Part shown: one piece after another, positions 14,915 to 32,225 of the stretch
How the letters are laid out: the number at the start of each line of letters is the position of its first letter
How positions within the stretch are numbered: position 1 is the stretch's first letter
Assembly: GCA_902552805.1 (NCBI GenBank)
Contig: CACDIC010000001.1
Coordinates: forward strand, 1 to 64,000
Length of the DNA stretch: 64,000 bases
Direction: 5' to 3'
From: an uncultured Pelagibacteraceae bacterium
Lineage (GTDB): Bacteria; Pseudomonadota; Alphaproteobacteria; Pelagibacterales; Pelagibacteraceae
Notes under the pieces: model-generated
What the model was told of the DNA's origin: nothing
Seen by the model: only the letters and a program-made list of their open reading frames with translations
Database searches by the model: none
Made by a program: the position numbers and the translations under genes

Positions 14915-15579
14915 CCAGCTGATCTTACTGTTCTAATTAAAGGTTTTGTATTTTGTATGTTAATTGCTTGTCTTAATCTTCTAATATGAACATCAACTGT
15001 TCTAGACTCAACATATATATTTTCTCCCCAAACATTGTTTAAGAGTTGTTCTCTTGAATAAACTCTTTTTGGATTTTTGATAAAAAAATCTAAGAGTTTA
15101 AATTCAGTTGGACCCAAAGTAATTTCTTTATCTTTTCTATAAACTCTTTTTGTAATCCGATCTATTTTTAAATCAGTAAATTCTACAATGTCTGATGATG
15201 ATTGAGGTTTAGATCTTCTCAATAAAGATTTAATTCTAGCATTCAATTCTTTTTGACTAAAAGGTTTAGTTACATAATCATCTGCACCTGTATCAAATGC
15301 TTTTAATTTGTCTTCTTCCTCCCCTTTTGCAGTTAACATAATGACAGGAATATCATTAAACTTATTATCTTTTTTTAAGTTTTTACAAATTTCAACACCA
15401 GATAATTCTGGTAACATCCAATCCATTAATATTAAATCTGGCTGTTTTAATTTTATTTGTTTAAGAGCATCTTCTCCATTTTCTGAATGACTGACTTTAT
15501 AACCTTCTTTTTCAAGATTGTACTTTAACAAACTAACAATTGATGCTTCATCTTCAGCTATGAAAACATGAGCTGACAT
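14896..15579 (-). CDS. phoB: Phosphate regulon response regulator
   Basis: OmpR/PhoB-class two-component regulator, 227 residues. The receiver has the acidic EDEAS pocket, phospho-acceptor Asp in LILMDWMLP, and the LTAKG and DDYVTKPF switch residues; the winged helix ends with ESRTVDVHIRRLRQAI and the RSAGYSL wing. It is the last gene of the reverse-strand run phoR-hyp-pstSCAB-phoU-phoB, 3 bases after phoU. It activates phosphate-starvation genes from Pho boxes. Confidence 0.93.
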   Translation of the reverse strand: MSAHVFIAEDEASIVSLLKYNLEKEGYKVSHSENGEDALKQIKLKQPDLILMDWMLPELSGVEICKNLKKDNKFNDIPVIMLTAKGEEEDKLKAFDTGADDYVTKPFSQKELNARIKSLLRRSKPQSSSDIVEFTDLKIDRITKRVYRKDKEITLGPTEFKLLDFFIKNPKRVYSREQLLNNVWGENIYVESRTVDVHIRRLRQAINIQNTKPLIRTVRSAGYSLES

Positions 15580-15582
15580 AAA

Positions 15583-16290
15583 TCATTTTTCTCCGGTTAC
15601 AATTGGCTCTGTTCCCTTGGGTCTATCACCTTCTAAATATTCGCCTTTAACTAAATAATAAACTTGTTCTGCAACATTTGTAGTATGATCACCAATACGC
15701 TCTATGTTTTTAGTTACAAACAATAAATGGGTTCCATCTTCTAAATTTTTTTCATTTTCTTTAAGATATTTTATAACTTCTTGCATACAAAGATTTGTTA
15801 GATCATCTATTTGCTCATCACCTTCCCAAACATTTACTGCCATTGGCGCAGATCTTTCTAGATAAGCATCTAATATTGATTTTAATTGTTTTTGAACATT
15901 GGTAGATACTCTATTCAATGAGTCTACCAAGTTCTTTGGAAGATTTTCGTTAAGCAAAAGTGTTCTCTTGGATATATTTTTTGCTAAATCACCTATTCTT
16001 TCTAAATCTGAAGACATTTTCAAAGCCGTTACTGTCTCTCTTAAATCAATTGCCATAGGTTGTCTTAAAGCAATTAAATTCACAACTTGCTGTTCAATTA
16101 AAGTCTCATATTTATCTATTTTTTCATCTTCTTGAATAACAGCTTCTGCAATATTGTTATCTCTTGTTGTAATGGCTTGAATTGCTTTTCCTAAAGAATC
16201 TTCACATGCACTTCCCATTTTAATTATATTAGCATTAAGATTTTTTAGTTCTTCTTCGTAAGATTTGACTGTATGTGGTGCTTCAGACAT
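15583..16290 (-). CDS. phoU: Phosphate signalling protein
   Basis: PhoU links PstSCAB activity to PhoR and restrains phosphate uptake. The 235-residue protein has two repeated three-helix PhoU domains, each with the metal-binding E/D-x3-D signatures, seen as SSDLERIGDLAKNI in the first and TKNIERIGDHTTNV in the second. The start overlaps the pstB stop by one base (TAATG type). Confidence 0.94.
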   Translation of the reverse strand: MSEAPHTVKSYEEELKNLNANIIKMGSACEDSLGKAIQAITTRDNNIAEAVIQEDEKIDKYETLIEQQVVNLIALRQPMAIDLRETVTALKMSSDLERIGDLAKNISKRTLLLNENLPKNLVDSLNRVSTNVQKQLKSILDAYLERSAPMAVNVWEGDEQIDDLTNLCMQEVIKYLKENEKNLEDGTHLLFVTKNIERIGDHTTNVAEQVYYLVKGEYLEGDRPKGTEPIVTGEK

Positions 16291-17045
16291 TATCCAAACC
16301 TCCCTGTTATATAATCTTGCGTTTTTTTATTATCAGGATTCTTAAATATTTTATCAGTAGATCCATGTTCAATCAATTGTCCTAAATGAAAAAAACCTGT
16401 ATTTTGAGAAACACGTGCTGCTTGAGCCATAGAATGAGTTACAATTATTATTGTGTGCTCTTTTTTTAACTCATCAATCAATTCTTCAATTTGTGCTGTT
16501 GCTATTGGATCTAATGCTGAACAAGGTTCATCCATTAATATAACTTCAGGTCTTACAGAAATCGCTCTAGCAATACAAAGTCTTTGCTGTTGTCCTCCAG
16601 ATAATCCAGTTCCAGGTTCATGCAACCTATCTTTTACCTCTTCCCATAATGCAGCCTTTTTCAAACTAGTTTCAACAATTTCATCCATTTCTTGTTTTGA
16701 TTGAGCCATACCATGAATTGTTGGACCGTAAGATACATTTTCATATAAAGTTTTTGGGAAAGGATTGGGTTTTTGAAAAACCATACCAATTTTTTCTCTT
16801 AGTCTTACGACATCACAACTTTTATCATTGATATTAAAATCATTAATTAAAATTTCTCCTTTAACACTACAGATATCAATTACATCATTCATTCTATTAA
16901 GACATCTTAGGAAAGTTGATTTACCACAACCAGATGGACCAATTAATGCCGTTACTTGATTTTCCTCAATATCTAAACTTATATTAAAGAGCGCTTGTTT
17001 TTTTCCATAAAAAACATCAACATCTTTTGCTTTAATCTTAATCAT
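16290..17045 (-). CDS. pstB: Phosphate ABC transporter, ATP-binding protein
   Basis: ATPase of the high-affinity phosphate importer. Walker A is GPSGCGKST, the Q-loop is [12 protein letters not shown], the signature [14 protein letters not shown], Walker [13 protein letters not shown], and the switch histidine in IIVTHSM. A longer frame opens with TTG at 17066 inside pstA, but GGAG sits 5 bases before the ATG at 17045 and the family start [11 protein letters not shown] follows, so ATG 17045 is preferred (251 residues). Confidence 0.95.
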
Positions 17046-20924: not shown

Positions 20925-21533
20925 TTAGTTGTATTTTTTTGATATAATTATTTGATCAATATCAGTTTCTAAGCCACCAATACATGAAACAGGGTATACC
21001 TGTTCATTAAGAGCTAGTTCTTTGGTTGGACGTAAAGTTATTTCTAGTTTTACTAAGTTTACTAATTCCTCTCTAATTTCTTCATCATATCTCCAGCTTG
21101 GCCATGAACTTGGGGTTGAAAATATAGAGGTTAAATAGCTTGTAGCCATAGTATATCTATAATTACTCAAATTTTCATTCCTCAATAAAAAATCTCTTAC
21201 AGAATTAAAAATATTCCTACATCTAAAAGAATCTGAAAAATAATTTTCCTTCTTGAGATTTCTATTCATAGGAACAGAAACAATTAAATCAATTGAATTT
21301 TTAGAATACGAGGTAACTACGTCTGTATAAAATTCAGCTTCAGTAACTTCTAAATGATCTTTAATAGAAGGATATGAAGTTTTCAAATCTGCCTCTAATC
21401 TAAAAATTCCAATATCAAAAACTGTAAGTTGCTGATTTCTTAATAATGTTGTGATATCTTTAGAAAAAACACTTGTTGTTATAGAGCTTAATAAAAAAGC
21501 AAAAATCAAAATATTTTTGAATATTTTAACCAT
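20925..21533 (-). CDS. Secreted protein of unknown function in the Pho operon
   Basis: No family recognised. The 202-residue product begins with a clear signal peptide (FKNILIFAFLLSSITTSVFS) and the mature part has just two cysteines, C105 and C184, which could form a disulfide. No lipobox is seen, so a soluble periplasmic protein is likely. It lies between phoR and pstS on the same strand, about 90 bases after phoR and 108 before pstS, which suggests a part in phosphate sensing or uptake; this is inference from position only. Confidence 0.72.
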   Translation of the reverse strand: MVKIFKNILIFAFLLSSITTSVFSKDITTLLRNQQLTVFDIGIFRLEADLKTSYPSIKDHLEVTEAEFYTDVVTSYSKNSIDLIVSVPMNRNLKKENYFSDSFRCRNIFNSVRDFLLRNENLSNYRYTMATSYLTSIFSTPSSWPSWRYDEEIREELVNLVKLEITLRPTKELALNEQVYPVSCIGGLETDIDQIIISKKYN

Positions 21534-24756: not shown

Positions 24757-25641
24757 ATGTTGTATTGTTTAATTTACAATCAAAACTCTTCCTCTGGAAG
24801 AAAATCAAAATTCATAAATAGGGTTTTATCTAAGTTAAAAGAAAATAATTCAGTAGAATACTTTGAGACCAAAACAATAAATCAAGCTAAGAAAATTTTT
24901 AAAAACTTTAATCAAAAAAATTATGATCGATTAATAGTTGCTGGTGGAGATGGATCTGTTTCTTTTGCAATTAATGAATTAATAAAGAATGATTTTAATT
25001 TTAAAGACGATTTTGCTATAGGCTATATACCTGCTGGGACTGCAAATTTACTGCAAGCTGAATTATCAATGAATAAAAAGATTGATGATATAGTCAATGT
25101 ATTGATTTCTAATAATTATAAATCCTCTAATCTTGTAAAAATTAACGAGAATTATTTCTTTTTAATGGCTGGTATAGGGTGGGATGCAAAAATTGTTCAT
25201 TCAATTAATTCAAAAATTAAAAAAATTCTTGGAAAAGTGATATTTGGTATCAAGGGTTTTCAATATTTCTTATTTATGAATAATAAAAAATTAAATGTTA
25301 CTTTTGATGGACAATTTTATCAAGCAGACTGGATATTATCCTCAAATACCAAATATTACGCTGGACATCATAAAATAAATAAAACAAATATTTTTGAAAA
25401 TAAAATAGTCACATATATATTTAAGGATTTAACTAGGATCAATTTATTATATTCTATATTTTTAATAATTCTTAATGGTGATTTAAGTAAAAATAAAAAT
25501 GTTATTACTACTTATTCACAAAACATTACTATTGATGGAAATGATTTGATACCAGTTCAAATTGATGGAGATAATTTTGGTTCATATAAAAAAATCCAAT
25601 TAAATCTAACAAATAAAAAAGTCAATTTTCTTGTGAAATAA
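24757..25641 (+). CDS. Diacylglycerol kinase family lipid kinase
   Basis: DagK catalytic-domain protein of 294 residues. The nucleotide-binding VAGGDGSVSFAINEL, the GTANLLQAEL substrate motif and the C-terminal VQIDGDNFGSY agree with DgkB/YegS enzymes. It would phosphorylate diacylglycerol or a related lipid, letting diacylglycerol released by PlcP return to phospholipid synthesis. It diverges from plcP across 98 bases and converges with the phosphonate cluster with no gap. The lipid substrate is not certain. Confidence 0.85.
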   Translation: MLYCLIYNQNSSSGRKSKFINRVLSKLKENNSVEYFETKTINQAKKIFKNFNQKNYDRLIVAGGDGSVSFAINELIKNDFNFKDDFAIGYIPAGTANLLQAELSMNKKIDDIVNVLISNNYKSSNLVKINENYFFLMAGIGWDAKIVHSINSKIKKILGKVIFGIKGFQYFLFMNNKKLNVTFDGQFYQADWILSSNTKYYAGHHKINKTNIFENKIVTYIFKDLTRINLLYSIFLIILNGDLSKNKNVITTYSQNITIDGNDLIPVQIDGDNFGSYKKIQLNLTNKKVNFLVK

Positions 25642-26739
25642 TTACTGCGAAATAATATTATAAATATCTTTTTCTCCAATTTTTACAGGATTATTACCAA
25701 GTCTTAATAAATTTATACCTTTTATAATATCATCTGAGCTTTGTTTAATATTGATATTTAGTGTTTGAAGATTATCCTCTAATTTAGCTTGTTTTTTTAT
25801 TAATGATATTTTGGAACTAAAATCATTAATTCCTTGAACATCAAACAGATTAAATATTAAATCAAATCTTTTTTTTAAGTCAAAAGAAGTTTCTGATTTA
25901 TCTTTGTTTTCGTAACTAAATTTAAAAAAACTCTCAAAAAATAAGCCTACAGCGTGACCATGGCTTACATTAAATAAAGAGGTAAAAGGATATGAAACAG
26001 CATGAGGTGCAGTAGTTTTTGATATGTTGATTGCCTTACCAGCTAAATTTGATGCAATAGCCATTTCAGTTGCATTCTTTAAGTTAGGATCATTTAAAAA
26101 AGATATATAACTATTTATTGATACTCTTAAAGATTTAGAAGCATAGTCAACACTTTGATCATTTGATTTTTTAGAAACTAAAGACTCTAAAGCTTGCGCG
26201 ATAGCATCAAAACCTGCTGATGCTTTAATCTTTTCAGGTGCAGAAATCAAAAATTCAGGAATTAAAAAAAAATTATCTGGTATTAATAATTGGCTTTCAA
26301 AAGAATGTTTAATTCCATCGACATAAATAACTGCATTTGAGGTTACTTCAGCTCCAGAACCAGCGGTAGTGGGTATGACAGCTAATTTAGTATATTTATT
26401 TTTAAACGGATAAGAATAATTAACAATTAAATCTGCTAAATCAGATCTTATTTCAACAACATTAGCTATCTTGGCATAGTCAATTACTGCACCACCGCCT
26501 ATCGCAAGAATTAAATTTGGTTTAAAATTTCTTATTTCTTTAATTATTTCGATAAGTTCTTCTAAGATTGGAAGATCAGAATTTTTATAAAAAAATCTTA
26601 TTTCTTTGTTATTTGTATCTTTTTTAAAAAATTTTTCAGCACCAGATGTTATAAAAGATTTTTTTCCACATATAATAAATATTCTTTTAAAGCTAGTATC
26701 ACTAATAAATTTTTTAATATCTTCAATAGAATTAACCAT
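25642..26739 (-). CDS. Iron-type alcohol dehydrogenase, probable phosphonoacetaldehyde reductase
   Basis: Group III (Fe-dependent) alcohol dehydrogenase of 365 residues. The GGGAVIDYAKI nucleotide loop, IPTTAGSGAE and the metal site in FDAIAQALES and VSHGHAVGL are seen. The first metal histidine of the usual D-x3-H is Gln here. Being last in an operon with PEP mutase and phosphonopyruvate decarboxylase, it most likely reduces phosphonoacetaldehyde to 2-hydroxyethylphosphonate, the substrate of methylphosphonate synthase. It overlaps ppd by one base. Confidence 0.83.
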   Translation of the reverse strand: MVNSIEDIKKFISDTSFKRIFIICGKKSFITSGAEKFFKKDTNNKEIRFFYKNSDLPILEELIEIIKEIRNFKPNLILAIGGGAVIDYAKIANVVEIRSDLADLIVNYSYPFKNKYTKLAVIPTTAGSGAEVTSNAVIYVDGIKHSFESQLLIPDNFFLIPEFLISAPEKIKASAGFDAIAQALESLVSKKSNDQSVDYASKSLRVSINSYISFLNDPNLKNATEMAIASNLAGKAINISKTTAPHAVSYPFTSLFNVSHGHAVGLFFESFFKFSYENKDKSETSFDLKKRFDLIFNLFDVQGINDFSSKISLIKKQAKLEDNLQTLNINIKQSSDDIIKGINLLRLGNNPVKIGEKDIYNIISQ

Positions 26740-27839
26740 TATTTCATAAATTCGTTTTTAATATAAATCAGATTTTCGGGTCTTGGTAAATTTTTAATTT
26801 TACTATTTGTGACCTTAACTTCTAAAAAATTTAAACTATTCCCAGATAGAAACTTTTTAAGACTTTTTCTTAAATTTTTATTATCTTTAATGCTATAAAA
26901 TTTTTTAAACCCCAGACTTTTAGATAACTTTTCGAGATCTATGTTTTTAACATAGGTGCTTTGACCACCTACTGAGTCATGAGTATTGTTATTTAATAAT
27001 ATATATTTAAAGTTTTTATTTGCAAAATTACCAGCTGTTTTAATAGAGCCTAAATGCATCAAAAATGAACCATCCCCATCAATACAAATCGTTTTTTTAT
27101 TGGTTGATAAAGAGTATCCTAGAGCTACAGAAGAGGTGTGACCCATACCACCAACCATATAAAAATCTTTGGATTTCTTAAGTTGATATTTGTTCCTTAT
27201 GTACATTATTTCTCTAGAATTATATCCAGTACTAGAAACAATTTTTGATTTATTATCTAAAATTTCAAGTAGAGTTTTAAAAAAGTTTTCTTTATCGATT
27301 TTAAAAAAATCTTTTTTGTTAATTTTTTTGTTATTTTTTTCTAAAGTACCTTGTTCGATTAAACACGCTACAATAACTTTATTTTTTTTTGCATTTTTTA
27401 TTTGTTTATCAAATTTTTTAAGATCTTTATTATTTCTAATAATTGTGTATTTGATATTCAAAAGCTTAAGAAGCTTTTCTGTAATTTTACCCTTCACATT
27501 GTGTTGTGGTTCATCTTTAATTTTTGGTGATCCCCTCCATCCGATTATCAAAATTAATGGGATTGCGTAAACTTTTGGATGAGCTATAGAAATCAAAGGA
27601 TTTAATGCATTTGATAAGCCAGAATTCTGCATATAAATACATGGAATTTTTTTAGTAGATAAATAATGACCAATACCAATTGATACAGCAGATCCTTCAT
27701 TCGATGCTATGATATGACTTTTTTTACTTTTACTTTGTAATTCAAATGAAAGTTCTTTGAGCACACTATCAGGAACACCAGTAAAAAAATTACTATTATT
27801 TTTCTTTAATACACTAATTAAAGAACTAATTTTAATCAT
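26739..27839 (-). CDS. ppd: Phosphonopyruvate decarboxylase
   Basis: Thiamine-diphosphate enzyme of 366 residues that pulls the unfavourable PEP mutase reaction forward by making phosphonoacetaldehyde. FFTGVPDSVLK, the catalytic glutamate in ASNEGSAVSIGIG, the GWRGSP and EPQHNVKG segments, and the ThDP-Mg motif GDGSFLMHLG ending in NNNTH are characteristic. The 8-base overlap with pepM couples the two. Sulfopyruvate decarboxylase is the main look-alike, but the neighbours settle it. Confidence 0.93.
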   Translation of the reverse strand: MIKISSLISVLKKNNSNFFTGVPDSVLKELSFELQSKSKKSHIIASNEGSAVSIGIGHYLSTKKIPCIYMQNSGLSNALNPLISIAHPKVYAIPLILIIGWRGSPKIKDEPQHNVKGKITEKLLKLLNIKYTIIRNNKDLKKFDKQIKNAKKNKVIVACLIEQGTLEKNNKKINKKDFFKIDKENFFKTLLEILDNKSKIVSSTGYNSREIMYIRNKYQLKKSKDFYMVGGMGHTSSVALGYSLSTNKKTICIDGDGSFLMHLGSIKTAGNFANKNFKYILLNNNTHDSVGGQSTYVKNIDLEKLSKSLGFKKFYSIKDNKNLRKSLKKFLSGNSLNFLEVKVTNSKIKNLPRPENLIYIKNEFMK

Positions 27840-29133
27840 TTTTAATCAAATTGATGATTTCTTTAATTGGAATTATCTTTTTATCAACTTCAAGAGCTCT
27901 TCCTTTTTGTAAAATAGTTTTTGCAACATTTTGCATAGCAGGATAAGCAGCCCTTAAAAGTTGATTTGCATAAATCACCAATTTAAAACCATTTTTAATT
28001 AAATCTTTTTCATAAACTTTTGAATAAGTTGATGGAACTGAAACTAAAGGAATATAGTTTCTGCTTTTTTTAAATGCTTTTGCAAAAGTAAAAATTTCAG
28101 ATGGAGTTTTCTCTTTACTGTGAATTAATATAGCATCAGCTCCTGCTTTTGAATAGATTTCAGCTCTATTTAATGCATCTTTTAATCCTTTGCCAACAAT
28201 AAAACTTTCTATTCTTGCTATTACAAGAAAATCTTTTGATCGTCTTGATGAACAAATTCTTTTAATCTTGTTTGCAAAAGTTTTTGGTTTATCTTGTTGA
28301 GTACCAGATTGATCTTTGAATAGTGAATTTTTCTTTAATCCAATTTTATCTTCCATTATAATTGCAGAAACGCCAGATCTTTCCAATGATCTAATCAAAA
28401 AAGATAAATGCTCGATTTGACCTCCGTTATCAGCATCAAAAACTAAAGGTTTAGTTGTTACATCCATCATGTCATTTAAAGACGAAATTCGAGATGAAAA
28501 ATCTAATGAAGAATTATCAGGCTTACCCTTAGTAGCAGAGTCCGTCAAACTTGACGACCACATACCATCAAATTCCAGAAATTTATTTTTATCATAAACT
28601 TTAAGATTTTCAATGATAAGACCTGTCAATGAATTGTGGGACTCTAAAATTCTAACTATCTTTTTAGAAGATAATAATCTTTTTAATCTTGAAACCCGAT
28701 TTTCAGGTAAAGAAGCTAATTCTAAAATCTTTTTTTTAATTTTAAAAGAAGAGATATCTTTTGTGTATTTTGGTTCAATTAACTTCCCAGACCATTTTTT
28801 TAACGTTTTAATAACTTTAGCTCTAGTTTTTTTTCTGTTATCATATTTCCAATCATCACCATGTACGAAAAAATTTGGTTTAATCTTGTTTAAATTATTA
28901 CTGTAGTCCTCTGTTTTTTGAGGAACAACTTTTGACACATATTTTAAATTTTTAACCAATAACTCTCTATTTTTATAATCAAGTAAAGGAATAGATTTAT
29001 AATTGGATATAGCTTCATCAGTTAAAAGCCCGACTATGACATCACCGTACTTTTTTGCTATTCTAAGTATATTAATGTGACCTTCGTGTAAAAAATCTAC
29101 AGCCAGAGGAACGTAAACTATTATTTTTTTCAT
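27832..29133 (-). CDS. pepM: Phosphoenolpyruvate mutase with N-terminal nucleotidyltransferase domain
   Basis: First enzyme of phosphonate biosynthesis; converts PEP to phosphonopyruvate. Residues 1-135 form a cytidylyltransferase-like domain with the HEGH motif and ISS end; residues about 150-433 form the isocitrate-lyase-like mutase with the diagnostic EDKIGLKKNS (261-270, pattern EDK-x3-K-x-NS) that separates it from other family members. The fused transferase suggests the phosphonate ends up activated with CMP. It overlaps the upstream stand-alone nucleotidyltransferase by 4 bases. Confidence 0.95.
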   Translation of the reverse strand: MKKIIVYVPLAVDFLHEGHINILRIAKKYGDVIVGLLTDEAISNYKSIPLLDYKNRELLVKNLKYVSKVVPQKTEDYSNNLNKIKPNFFVHGDDWKYDNRKKTRAKVIKTLKKWSGKLIEPKYTKDISSFKIKKKILELASLPENRVSRLKRLLSSKKIVRILESHNSLTGLIIENLKVYDKNKFLEFDGMWSSSLTDSATKGKPDNSSLDFSSRISSLNDMMDVTTKPLVFDADNGGQIEHLSFLIRSLERSGVSAIIMEDKIGLKKNSLFKDQSGTQQDKPKTFANKIKRICSSRRSKDFLVIARIESFIVGKGLKDALNRAEIYSKAGADAILIHSKEKTPSEIFTFAKAFKKSRNYIPLVSVPSTYSKVYEKDLIKNGFKLVIYANQLLRAAYPAMQNVAKTILQKGRALEVDKKIIPIKEIINLIKND

Positions 29134-29570
29134 ATTTTGTTAAGTAATGATTTTATTTTTGACGAAGAAATATTTTTTGTATATTCAAATTCCAATACTT
29201 TACCATTCCATTTTTTCATAGTTTTAATCAAATCACTTCTAACTTTAGATTGAATATTTTTTTTCCAATCATCACCATGAACAAAGTATTCAAATTTATA
29301 CTTTTTTGCAAATTCAACATATTTTAAACCATTTAATGGAATAATCTTTTTAATACATTTTATTTGATCTAAAACCCTTTTTCTATTTTTATAATTAACA
29401 ATCGGTTTTTTTCTTTTATAACTTTTTATGCCAGAGTCAGTCATTAAGCCAACTATTACATTACCGTGTCTATTTGCTTTTAGTAAAATATTTATATGAC
29501 CATAATGTAATATATCAGCAGCCATTGGTACAAATACTAATGGTCTATATTTGTTCAATGATAAATACAT
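29130..29570 (-). CDS. Adenylyl/cytidylyltransferase family protein of the phosphonate cluster
   Basis: Small nucleotidyltransferase, 146 residues. HYGHINIL is the HxGH nucleotide motif, and ISSSKI is the usual C-terminal ISS. It is a clear paralogue of the N-terminal domain of PepM next to it: both have LxxGHINIL, FVHGDDWK and a KKW-x-GK stretch. It probably makes a CMP-phosphonate for transfer to a lipid or glycan, like PntC and related enzymes. It is the first gene of the reverse-strand phosphonate operon. Confidence 0.82.
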   Translation of the reverse strand: MYLSLNKYRPLVFVPMAADILHYGHINILLKANRHGNVIVGLMTDSGIKSYKRKKPIVNYKNRKRVLDQIKCIKKIIPLNGLKYVEFAKKYKFEYFVHGDDWKKNIQSKVRSDLIKTMKKWNGKVLEFEYTKNISSSKIKSLLNKI

Positions 29571-29634
29571 TTGTTGAAGTTATAATTTTTATATATATAT
29601 GTTAATTTATAACTGTTCATAATACGTAAATTAT

Positions 29635-30936
29635 ATGATTTCAAATATTAAATTTAGGAAATTACTAAATGATCTAAAGAGAAGACCTGAGGATGCAGCA
29701 AAAGATCTTAATATTACTAAAAAAGAAATTCTAAAATTTTTAAATAATAAAAAAGAAATATCTCATAAGATACTAAATCAAGCTACAAAAGTTTGGCCAG
29801 TTAATCATGGAGATTTTTTTTCATTTTCTGATGATACTCAAAATGGTTTCAAAATAATGAGATCAGATAAATCTAACAAATCTAAAAGAATAATGATTAG
29901 AGGAAAAAAACCATATTATCTTTACAAAGATACAGTAATGAGCAAAGTCTCACCTTTTAAACCTGAGCTAATTACAGAATTAGTTGTTGTTGAAAATGAT
30001 AATCCAAATAATCCTAAAGTAAAATTTAATAATGGACATTTTCTACACCAATTTACATACTTTATTGGACCCGTTAATTTTTACTATCTAAAAAATAATA
30101 AAAAAAAAATAGCTAGGATGAATACTGGTGACTCCATGTATATATCACCTTATGTTCCTCATTCATTTACAACAAGAAAAAATAAAAAAAATGAATTAGG
30201 TAAGATTTTAGCTCTTACATATTCTGACCAAATCGATAATGAAACATTAAATGAATTAAATGTATTAGGTTTTGATATCGCAAATAAGTATAGAATTGAT
30301 CTTACGAATGAAAATAGAGCTTTCTGGGGAAATTTAGATATTTTTTTTAATAATTCATCTATTTCTTTAGATGAATTTAAAAAAAAAACTAACATAGATT
30401 TAAACAAACTAAGAAAAAAAAAAAATGTTCCAAATTTAAATACTCTAAAAAAAATATCTAATTTTTTAAATATTGGTTTAAGAGATTTGCTACCTCCAAA
30501 AGAAAAAATTGAAGTAAAAATTCAAAAATATTCTCAAAATAGAAACTGGTATTTTCCTTCTAATAAAAAAAAGGATTATCTATTTGTTGAATTAACAAAT
30601 ATTCCCCAATTACCTTATTCTAGAGGTTATGAATTCCATATTTTAAGTAATCATAAAATAAATCGAACTTTAGAGGTTCCATCACATCAATATATTTACA
30701 ATATTGGACATACGAATGTTCAAGCAATTATAAACAAAAAAAAAATAAAAATTTACCCAGGTGACTCATTATATATAAAGCCAAATTTAAAACATTATTT
30801 CAATCAAAAAGGGAAATTACTTATATTAAGACTAGGGGGAAGAATATCGGGTGATAGACTTTATCAACTTTCAATGCTTTCAAAACAAAATTTGTTTAAA
30901 ACTATAGATGATATTAAACCTTGGTTTAATAAATAA
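29635..30936 (+). CDS. mpnS: Methylphosphonate synthase (HEPD/MPnS family iron oxygenase)
   Basis: Non-haem iron oxygenase of 433 residues that splits 2-hydroxyethylphosphonate to methylphosphonate. An N-terminal helix-turn-helix-like segment (residues 5-40) precedes a double cupin. The iron site reads H135-x3-Q139 and H176, the unusual 2-His-1-Gln triad reported for MPnS; F140 follows the Gln, and I170, six before H176, replaces the Glu of classical HEPD. From memory these neighbours distinguish MPnS from HEPD. A second cupin lies at about residues 340-420. It diverges from the pepM operon across 64 bases. Confidence 0.87.
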   Translation: MISNIKFRKLLNDLKRRPEDAAKDLNITKKEILKFLNNKKEISHKILNQATKVWPVNHGDFFSFSDDTQNGFKIMRSDKSNKSKRIMIRGKKPYYLYKDTVMSKVSPFKPELITELVVVENDNPNNPKVKFNNGHFLHQFTYFIGPVNFYYLKNNKKKIARMNTGDSMYISPYVPHSFTTRKNKKNELGKILALTYSDQIDNETLNELNVLGFDIANKYRIDLTNENRAFWGNLDIFFNNSSISLDEFKKKTNIDLNKLRKKKNVPNLNTLKKISNFLNIGLRDLLPPKEKIEVKIQKYSQNRNWYFPSNKKKDYLFVELTNIPQLPYSRGYEFHILSNHKINRTLEVPSHQYIYNIGHTNVQAIINKKKIKIYPGDSLYIKPNLKHYFNQKGKLLILRLGGRISGDRLYQLSMLSKQNLFKTIDDIKPWFNK

Positions 30937-31013: not shown

Positions 31014-32225
31014 TTATTTTGACTTAACCCTTCCATATATATCTTTATATCTAACAATGTCAGTTTCTTTTAATATAGAACCAACCTGAGCTTCAATAAT
31101 TTTTACTGGTTTCTTGTATGGGTTTTCAATTCTATGAACAGATCCTAGAGGTATAAAAATAGTTTCGTCAGGTTTCATATTAAAATATTTTTTATTCAAG
31201 GTAATTTTTGGTTTGCCTTGAGTAACTACCCAATGTTCAGCTCTATGATGATGTTTCTGTAGACTTAGTATACCTTTTGATTTTACATACAATTCTTTAA
31301 TTAAGAATTCCTTACCATTAAATAAATTAACATAGCTGCCCCAAGGTCTATGAAATACATTCTTCTTTTTAAAATAATGTCTCTTATTTCGTCCATACAT
31401 TTTACAAATCTCTTTCCATGATCCTAAATCAGACCAAGGAATATCTAACTTGATAGCATTTATATCTTTGGTTTTTTCTAAGATTGCATAATCAAATGAC
31501 TTTGCAGTGGCTTTAACAAAAGAAGGTTTGTTTAGATAATACACATTACTTTTATATTTTGCTTTTGTTACAGCTTTGATGCAGTTTCGGTAAATATTTG
31601 GCTGGTATTTCTTAAAATTATTAATAATAGAATCTTTTCTAAGATAAAACATTCCTGAATTCCAGTAACCTTTTTTTTGAATAATTTTTTTTGCTTTAGT
31701 TTCGTTAGGTTTTTCTAGAAATCTTGATACTTTATTGATATTTCCTTTAATCTTTTTAGATAAAAAATATCCAAATTCACTAGATGGTACTGTAGGTTTA
31801 ATACCAAATATAAAGATATTGTTTTCAGTTAAATTTTTTTGATTTTTTTTGATAGCTTTATTGAATAAACCAACCTTTTCTATCAAATGATCAGCAGCCA
31901 AGAACATTAAAGGTTGTTCATTTGGAATATCTTTGATCAATGCAGTGCTTAATATTGCTGGAGCTGTATTTCTTTTTGCAGGCTCTAAAACTACCTTGAA
32001 TTTTTTTATTCTATGTTTCTTTAAATGCTGTTTAACTTGTTTAAGATATTTTGTGTTAGTACTTATAACTGGAGTATCAAATATAGATGTTTTAACTCTT
32101 TCAAGTGTTTTACCTAATAAAGTCCAATTACCAAAGTCAATGAATTGTTTAGCCTGATGATTTTTTGAGTTAGGCCAAAGCCTTGTACCTGCACCACCAC
32201 ATAAAATAACTGGGCGAATTTTCAT
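31014..32225 (-). CDS. manC: Mannose-1-phosphate guanylyltransferase with cupin domain (ManC/AlgA type)
   Basis: Makes GDP-mannose from GTP and mannose 1-phosphate. The nucleotidyltransferase signature ILCGGAGTRLWPNSKNHQAKQ opens the protein, EKPNETKAKK and NSGMFYLR follow, and residues about 290-403 form the mannose-6-phosphate isomerase type II cupin (HRPWGSY, LQKHHHRAEHW). At 403 residues it is shorter than AlgA (about 480). It overlaps the ilvD stop by one base and lies next to the phosphonate cluster, so its sugar could feed a phosphonate-decorated glycan; that link is conjecture. Confidence 0.87.
   Translation of the reverse strand: MKIRPVILCGGAGTRLWPNSKNHQAKQFIDFGNWTLLGKTLERVKTSIFDTPVISTNTKYLKQVKQHLKKHRIKKFKVVLEPAKRNTAPAILSTALIKDIPNEQPLMFLAADHLIEKVGLFNKAIKKNQKNLTENNIFIFGIKPTVPSSEFGYFLSKKIKGNINKVSRFLEKPNETKAKKIIQKKGYWNSGMFYLRKDSIINNFKKYQPNIYRNCIKAVTKAKYKSNVYYLNKPSFVKATAKSFDYAILEKTKDINAIKLDIPWSDLGSWKEICKMYGRNKRHYFKKKNVFHRPWGSYVNLFNGKEFLIKELYVKSKGILSLQKHHHRAEHWVVTQGKPKITLNKKYFNMKPDETIFIPLGSVHRIENPYKKPVKIIEAQVGSILKETDIVRYKDIYGRVKSK

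Follow-up and report, generated by a model that had tools for sequence, protein, structure and literature searches.

A probable methylphosphonate biosynthesis cassette inserted between a lipid-kinase gene and manC in a SAR11 genome

The stretch of DNA analysed here (the window; 64,000 nucleotides, G000:C1:1-64000) carries a gene cassette of a SAR11 bacterium that very probably directs the synthesis of methylphosphonate from PEP, with activation by CMP and attachment to the cell surface as probable later steps. The window belongs to a genome of 1.07 Mb in 22 contigs, 87% complete, absences from which are provisional. Its host is clearly to be assigned to SAR11, since a 100% identical oxygenase protein occurs in the uncultured Pelagibacteraceae isolate AG-390-M02 (L005), a published single-cell genome, and a 97% identical one in AG-908-E21. 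Five intact ORFs occupy positions 25642-30936: an Fe-type alcohol dehydrogenase (Fe-ADH), Ppd, a cytidylyltransferase-PepM fusion, a second small cytidylyltransferase and a divergently oriented oxygenase. In the proposed route PepM would convert PEP to phosphonopyruvate, Ppd would decarboxylate this to phosphonoacetaldehyde, Fe-ADH would reduce the aldehyde to 2-hydroxyethylphosphonate (2-HEP) and the oxygenase, a methylphosphonate synthase (MPnS) of the 2-His-1-Gln iron type, would use O2 to cleave 2-HEP into methylphosphonate and a one-carbon by-product. Both cytidylyltransferases, the PepM-fused and the separate one, would probably link the phosphonate to CMP, giving a conjugate from which it would pass to a glycan, glycoprotein or lipid of the cell surface. 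The gene identities, the intact catalytic motifs, the MPnS-type residues and the precise insertion are read from the DNA itself, and from these we infer the reactions, the Fe-ADH substrate, the CMP activation and the final acceptor. A previous sequence-only reading of this DNA had proposed the PEP-to-methylphosphonate route, and every gene that it named proved to be intact where it had been placed, with the PepM and Ppd cut-offs passed and an oxygenase of the MPnS type.

The four minus-strand genes overlap each other by 1 to 8 bases, an arrangement as in a tight operon, and the ORF coordinates leave 64 bp of divergent intergenic DNA (29571..29634) before mpnS, within which both promoters presumably lie. 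The fusion protein (27832..29133, minus strand) contains the PEP mutase in residues 150-432; it scores 370.4 bits against TIGR02320, over the cut-off of 319.55, its C-terminus matches 1m1b (2.1e-46) and its motif EDKIGLKKNS fits EDK(X)5NS, in agreement with the EDK-x3-K-x-NS signature read earlier. The naming of the phosphonopyruvate decarboxylase Ppd/AepY (26739..27839, minus strand) was likewise upheld by the equivalog TIGR03297, with 365.2 bits over a cut-off of 312.5. The earlier assignment of an Fe-type dehydrogenase (25642..26739, minus strand) stood at the level of the superfamily, of which the protein is a clear member (PF00465, 1.7e-25; PF25137, 6e-18); since no equivalog cut-off was reached (TIGR03405, 106 bits vs 424), its probable role as phosphonoacetaldehyde reductase (PhpC/Pdh) is assigned by synteny only, the gene adjoining ppd in SAR11 pepM clusters. 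The first metal-ligand His of this enzyme is replaced by Gln, which is not taken as a sign of decay because the solved structure 6jko has the same residue.

Three lines of evidence, namely sequence identity, the side of the tree and a discriminating residue pair, favour MPnS over HEPD as the identity of the oxygenase (29635..30936, plus strand). It matches the Nitrosopumilus maritimus MPnS (NmMPnS, 6b9s) over its full length with 383 bits (E=1.4e-113, 44% identity), against 205 bits (1.2e-59, 30% identity, nearly full length) for the Streptomyces albus HEPD (SaHEPD, 6b9r). H135, Q139 and H176, its iron ligands, correspond in the alignment to H148, Q152 and H190 of NmMPnS; the same 2-His-1-Gln triad is present in SaHEPD, being necessary for MPnS and not sufficient. 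This shared triad and the resemblance to SaHEPD, together with the occurrence of HEPD in Pelagibacterales reported in PMC9381506, would suit an oxygenase of the HEPD type, with hydroxymethylphosphonate and formate as its products from 2-HEP, but the MPnS match is better by 178 bits, and the residue pair and the tree likewise speak against this alternative, which we regard as very improbable. The diagnostic pair of class II HEPD is Tyr158-Gly179 in AlpG (PMC8976061). Its counterpart in SaHEPD, Y163/G184, was picked by the same 21-residue spacing, by differing from NmMPnS and by lying in the metal-site region, and through this spacing match we infer that F149/I170 of the present oxygenase, equivalent to F162/I184 of NmMPnS, is the published discriminating pair. 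The Tyr-Gly motif of class II HEPD is replaced here by Phe-Ile, and the alignment with MPnS and HEPD around the Gln ligand that had been suggested as a check gave the MPnS-type answer. The sequence-only reading had placed H135, Q139, H176, F140 and I170 correctly and had rightly called the protein MPnS-like; of the features that it took as the MPnS pattern, the H-x3-Q...H triad is present but common to SaHEPD, and I170 does separate the two enzymes, whereas F140 does not, as position 140 is also Phe in SaHEPD and the informative Phe is F149.

In a tree of 10 rows, weakly sampled with its single HEPD, a split with a support of 93/93 separates SaHEPD from NmMPnS and every SAR11 copy, so that the HEPD-clade placement named beforehand as the contrary outcome was not seen in this sampling; a very divergent row that had spoiled the first tree, the second copy of genome G338, was excluded. 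A constraint holding only the SAR11 mpnS copies and NmMPnS together on these 10 rows gave a p-AU of 0.136, neither rejecting nor proving the grouping. Every catalytic and marker residue of MPnS is kept across copies that are 57-97% identical. No HEPD relatives were found in plasmids, and a phylum-wide search returned, besides the window's own gene, weak partial matches and no full-length homologues. Within the SAR11 family, G338 carries two MPnS/HEPD-family genes (L048 9891-11180, minus strand, and 15108-16442, plus strand), one with a mixed Tyr/Ile marker pair and the other without the iron-binding Gln, near a CDP-alcohol phosphotransferase gene and genes that by eye are ATP-sulfurylase- and APS-kinase-like.

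The cassette is part of a 5,372-bp block lying exactly between the stop codons of a DAGK-type lipid-kinase gene (24757..25641, plus strand; PF00781, 1.2e-23) and of a gene for a ManC-type mannose-1-phosphate guanylyltransferase (31014..32225, minus strand; PF00483 and PF01050, with TIGR01479 at 365.7 bits, just below its cut-off of 372.95). These stop codons abut directly in three relatives (L077, L078 and L079), and the GC content of the block is 25% vs 28% for the window. The same gene set is found in L005, L006 and G297, G029 has a different block at this junction, and in G037 an mpnS cluster (mpnS-NT2-pepM-ppd) is located elsewhere in the genome among glycan-type genes. Because the site is empty in three relatives, holds the methylphosphonate cassette here and another block in G029, the lipid-kinase/manC junction (25641/25642 and 31013/31014; L076 1859-7483) appears to be an insertion hotspot. 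In the comparison with G297, which has the same block, the flanking DNA is ~81-98% identical and the segment from ppd through mpnS 71-87%, with the minimum in mpnS. Taken as a whole, the cassette looks like one that is gained, lost and exchanged, and a chance match is excluded by the E-values and by the recurrence of this gene order in other genomes.

Two cytidylyltransferase units that were missing from the gene list of the sequence-only reading suggest that CMP activation prepares the product for attachment to a molecule of the cell surface. The first forms the N-terminal part of the PepM protein (residues ~1-138; PF01467, 6.6e-15), a fusion of the Fom1 type with 5x3d (1.3e-39), deposited under the name of PEP mutase, as a strong solved relative. 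Among PepM proteins, 23.6% carry a fused PF01467 domain, and the corresponding domain of Fom1 makes CMP-HEP from 2-HEP (PMC6697681). The second, NT2, is a stand-alone protein (29130..29570, minus strand; PF01467, 2.2e-19) with 5x3d as its best solved relative (3.5e-33). Orthologues of NT2 with 66-73% identity adjoin the other SAR11 mpnS genes, a stand-alone cytidylyltransferase accompanying mpnS in all three distinct SAR11 loci found, and the small cytidylyltransferases of other pepM loci reach at most ~45% identity to it. It is tempting to speculate, although tentatively, that NT2 could be a dedicated CTP:methylphosphonate cytidylyltransferase and that the PepM-fused domain handles 2-HEP, in which case SAR11 would make CMP-methylphosphonate as the donor with which its surface is decorated. 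The fusion was present in all 30 of the 30 SAR11 pepM loci inspected, most of them lacking mpnS, where the main product is presumably a 2-HEP ester at the cell surface; the same could apply here, with 2-HEP or CMP-HEP as the substance attached and the MPnS homologue as a side branch or with a drifted function. The action of the Fom1 domain on 2-HEP (PMC6697681) and the divergence of Ppd, NT2 and MPnS from G297, greater than that of the flanks, would fit such an outcome, but the full retention of the MPnS residues and the co-occurrence of NT2 with mpnS, which suggests a dedicated function, make it unlikely, and methylphosphonate remains our preferred product. No LicD-type transferase was found in the host genome (87% complete). 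A 371-aa gene neighbouring mpnS in G297 was considered as a conserved transferase and rejected, having no homologue in the same 87% complete genome and no Pfam match over the cut-off. Next to mpnS, two different alphaproteobacterial genomes each encode an unnamed protein (371 aa, L046 14109-15224; 368 aa, L051 8841-9947; both minus strand) without a Pfam match over the cut-off; the two look alike by eye and are candidate phosphonate transferases.

Left of the cassette lie phoB-phoU-pstBACS, phoR, lipid-remodelling genes of the agt and plcP types and the lipid-kinase gene, and right of it manC, ilvD and valS, names that we take from the sequence and from known SAR11 gene content. An uncharacterised protein of 202 aa whose N-terminus is signal-like (20925-21533, minus strand) is encoded between pstS and phoR and is kept in the pst region of relatives with 54-97% identity. 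The proximity of the pst/pho and plcP/agt-type genes, and the discussion of storage in SAR11 in PMC9381506, raise an alternative that concerns the purpose and not the chemistry, namely that methylphosphonate is an internal phosphorus store reused under P limitation. We consider this quite unlikely: the C-P lyase gene phnJ was not found in the host genome (87% complete), which fits the published observation that a genome seldom encodes both the production and the consumption of phosphonates, the same study found no evidence that Prochlorococcus uses them for storage (PMC8931226), and no convincing PHO box was found at the divergent promoter (29571..29634), the matches to the pattern across the window being fewer than expected by chance and none of them there.

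Of 297 family genomes, 37 had a true pepM (over the cut-off), and an mpnS-family gene was present in 5 of 397. A virus-classified contig of 23.9 kb (IMGVR_UViG_3300030107_006534; L075 2921-6384; whole contig L082, L083) encodes an MPnS homologue with the H-Q-H ligands and the Phe/Ile pair, and has a cytidylyltransferase-PepM fusion, a short Fe-ADH, a LicD-like gene and many sugar-nucleotide-type genes; ten of its proteins scanned against PHROGs included no structural hallmark and its viral status is unproven, but if viral it would represent a phage-borne phosphonate pathway.

Methylphosphonate is broken down by other microbes to methane in oxygenated seawater. SAR11 are among the most abundant bacteria of the ocean, and therefore mpnS-bearing strains are plausible methylphosphonate sources feeding aerobic marine methane release, an idea that is already published. 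To this the present locus adds a complete, intact and insertable cassette and a hint that its product is activated with CMP for a surface polymer. A structural paper of 2017 on MPnS reportedly also confirmed a Pelagibacter enzyme. The locus is thus a confirmed and intact representative of a system already known, since mpnS in SAR11 was reported in 2012 (Metcalf 2012, as cited in PMC4830246) and a survey of Pelagibacterales followed in 2022 (PMC9381506). It shares order and gene with those published cases; the insertion site between dagK and manC and the second cytidylyltransferase linked to mpnS, neither described in the available portions of the two sources, are modest additions. Compared with NmMPnS (6b9s, 6b9t), the oxygenase has the same ligands, the same F/I pair and the same 2-HEP route at 44% full-length identity, but in a bacterial SAR11 host and another gene neighbourhood. 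SaHEPD and the class II HEPD AlpG belong to the same sequence family with the same iron ligands, and differ in their Tyr/Gly pair and hydroxymethylphosphonate product, with 30% identity for 6b9r. Finally, the fosfomycin protein Fom1 has its cytidylyltransferase domain N-terminal to PEP mutase in a single protein as here, whereas the cassette has mpnS in place of the genes for the Fom3 methyltransferase and the Fom4 epoxidase.
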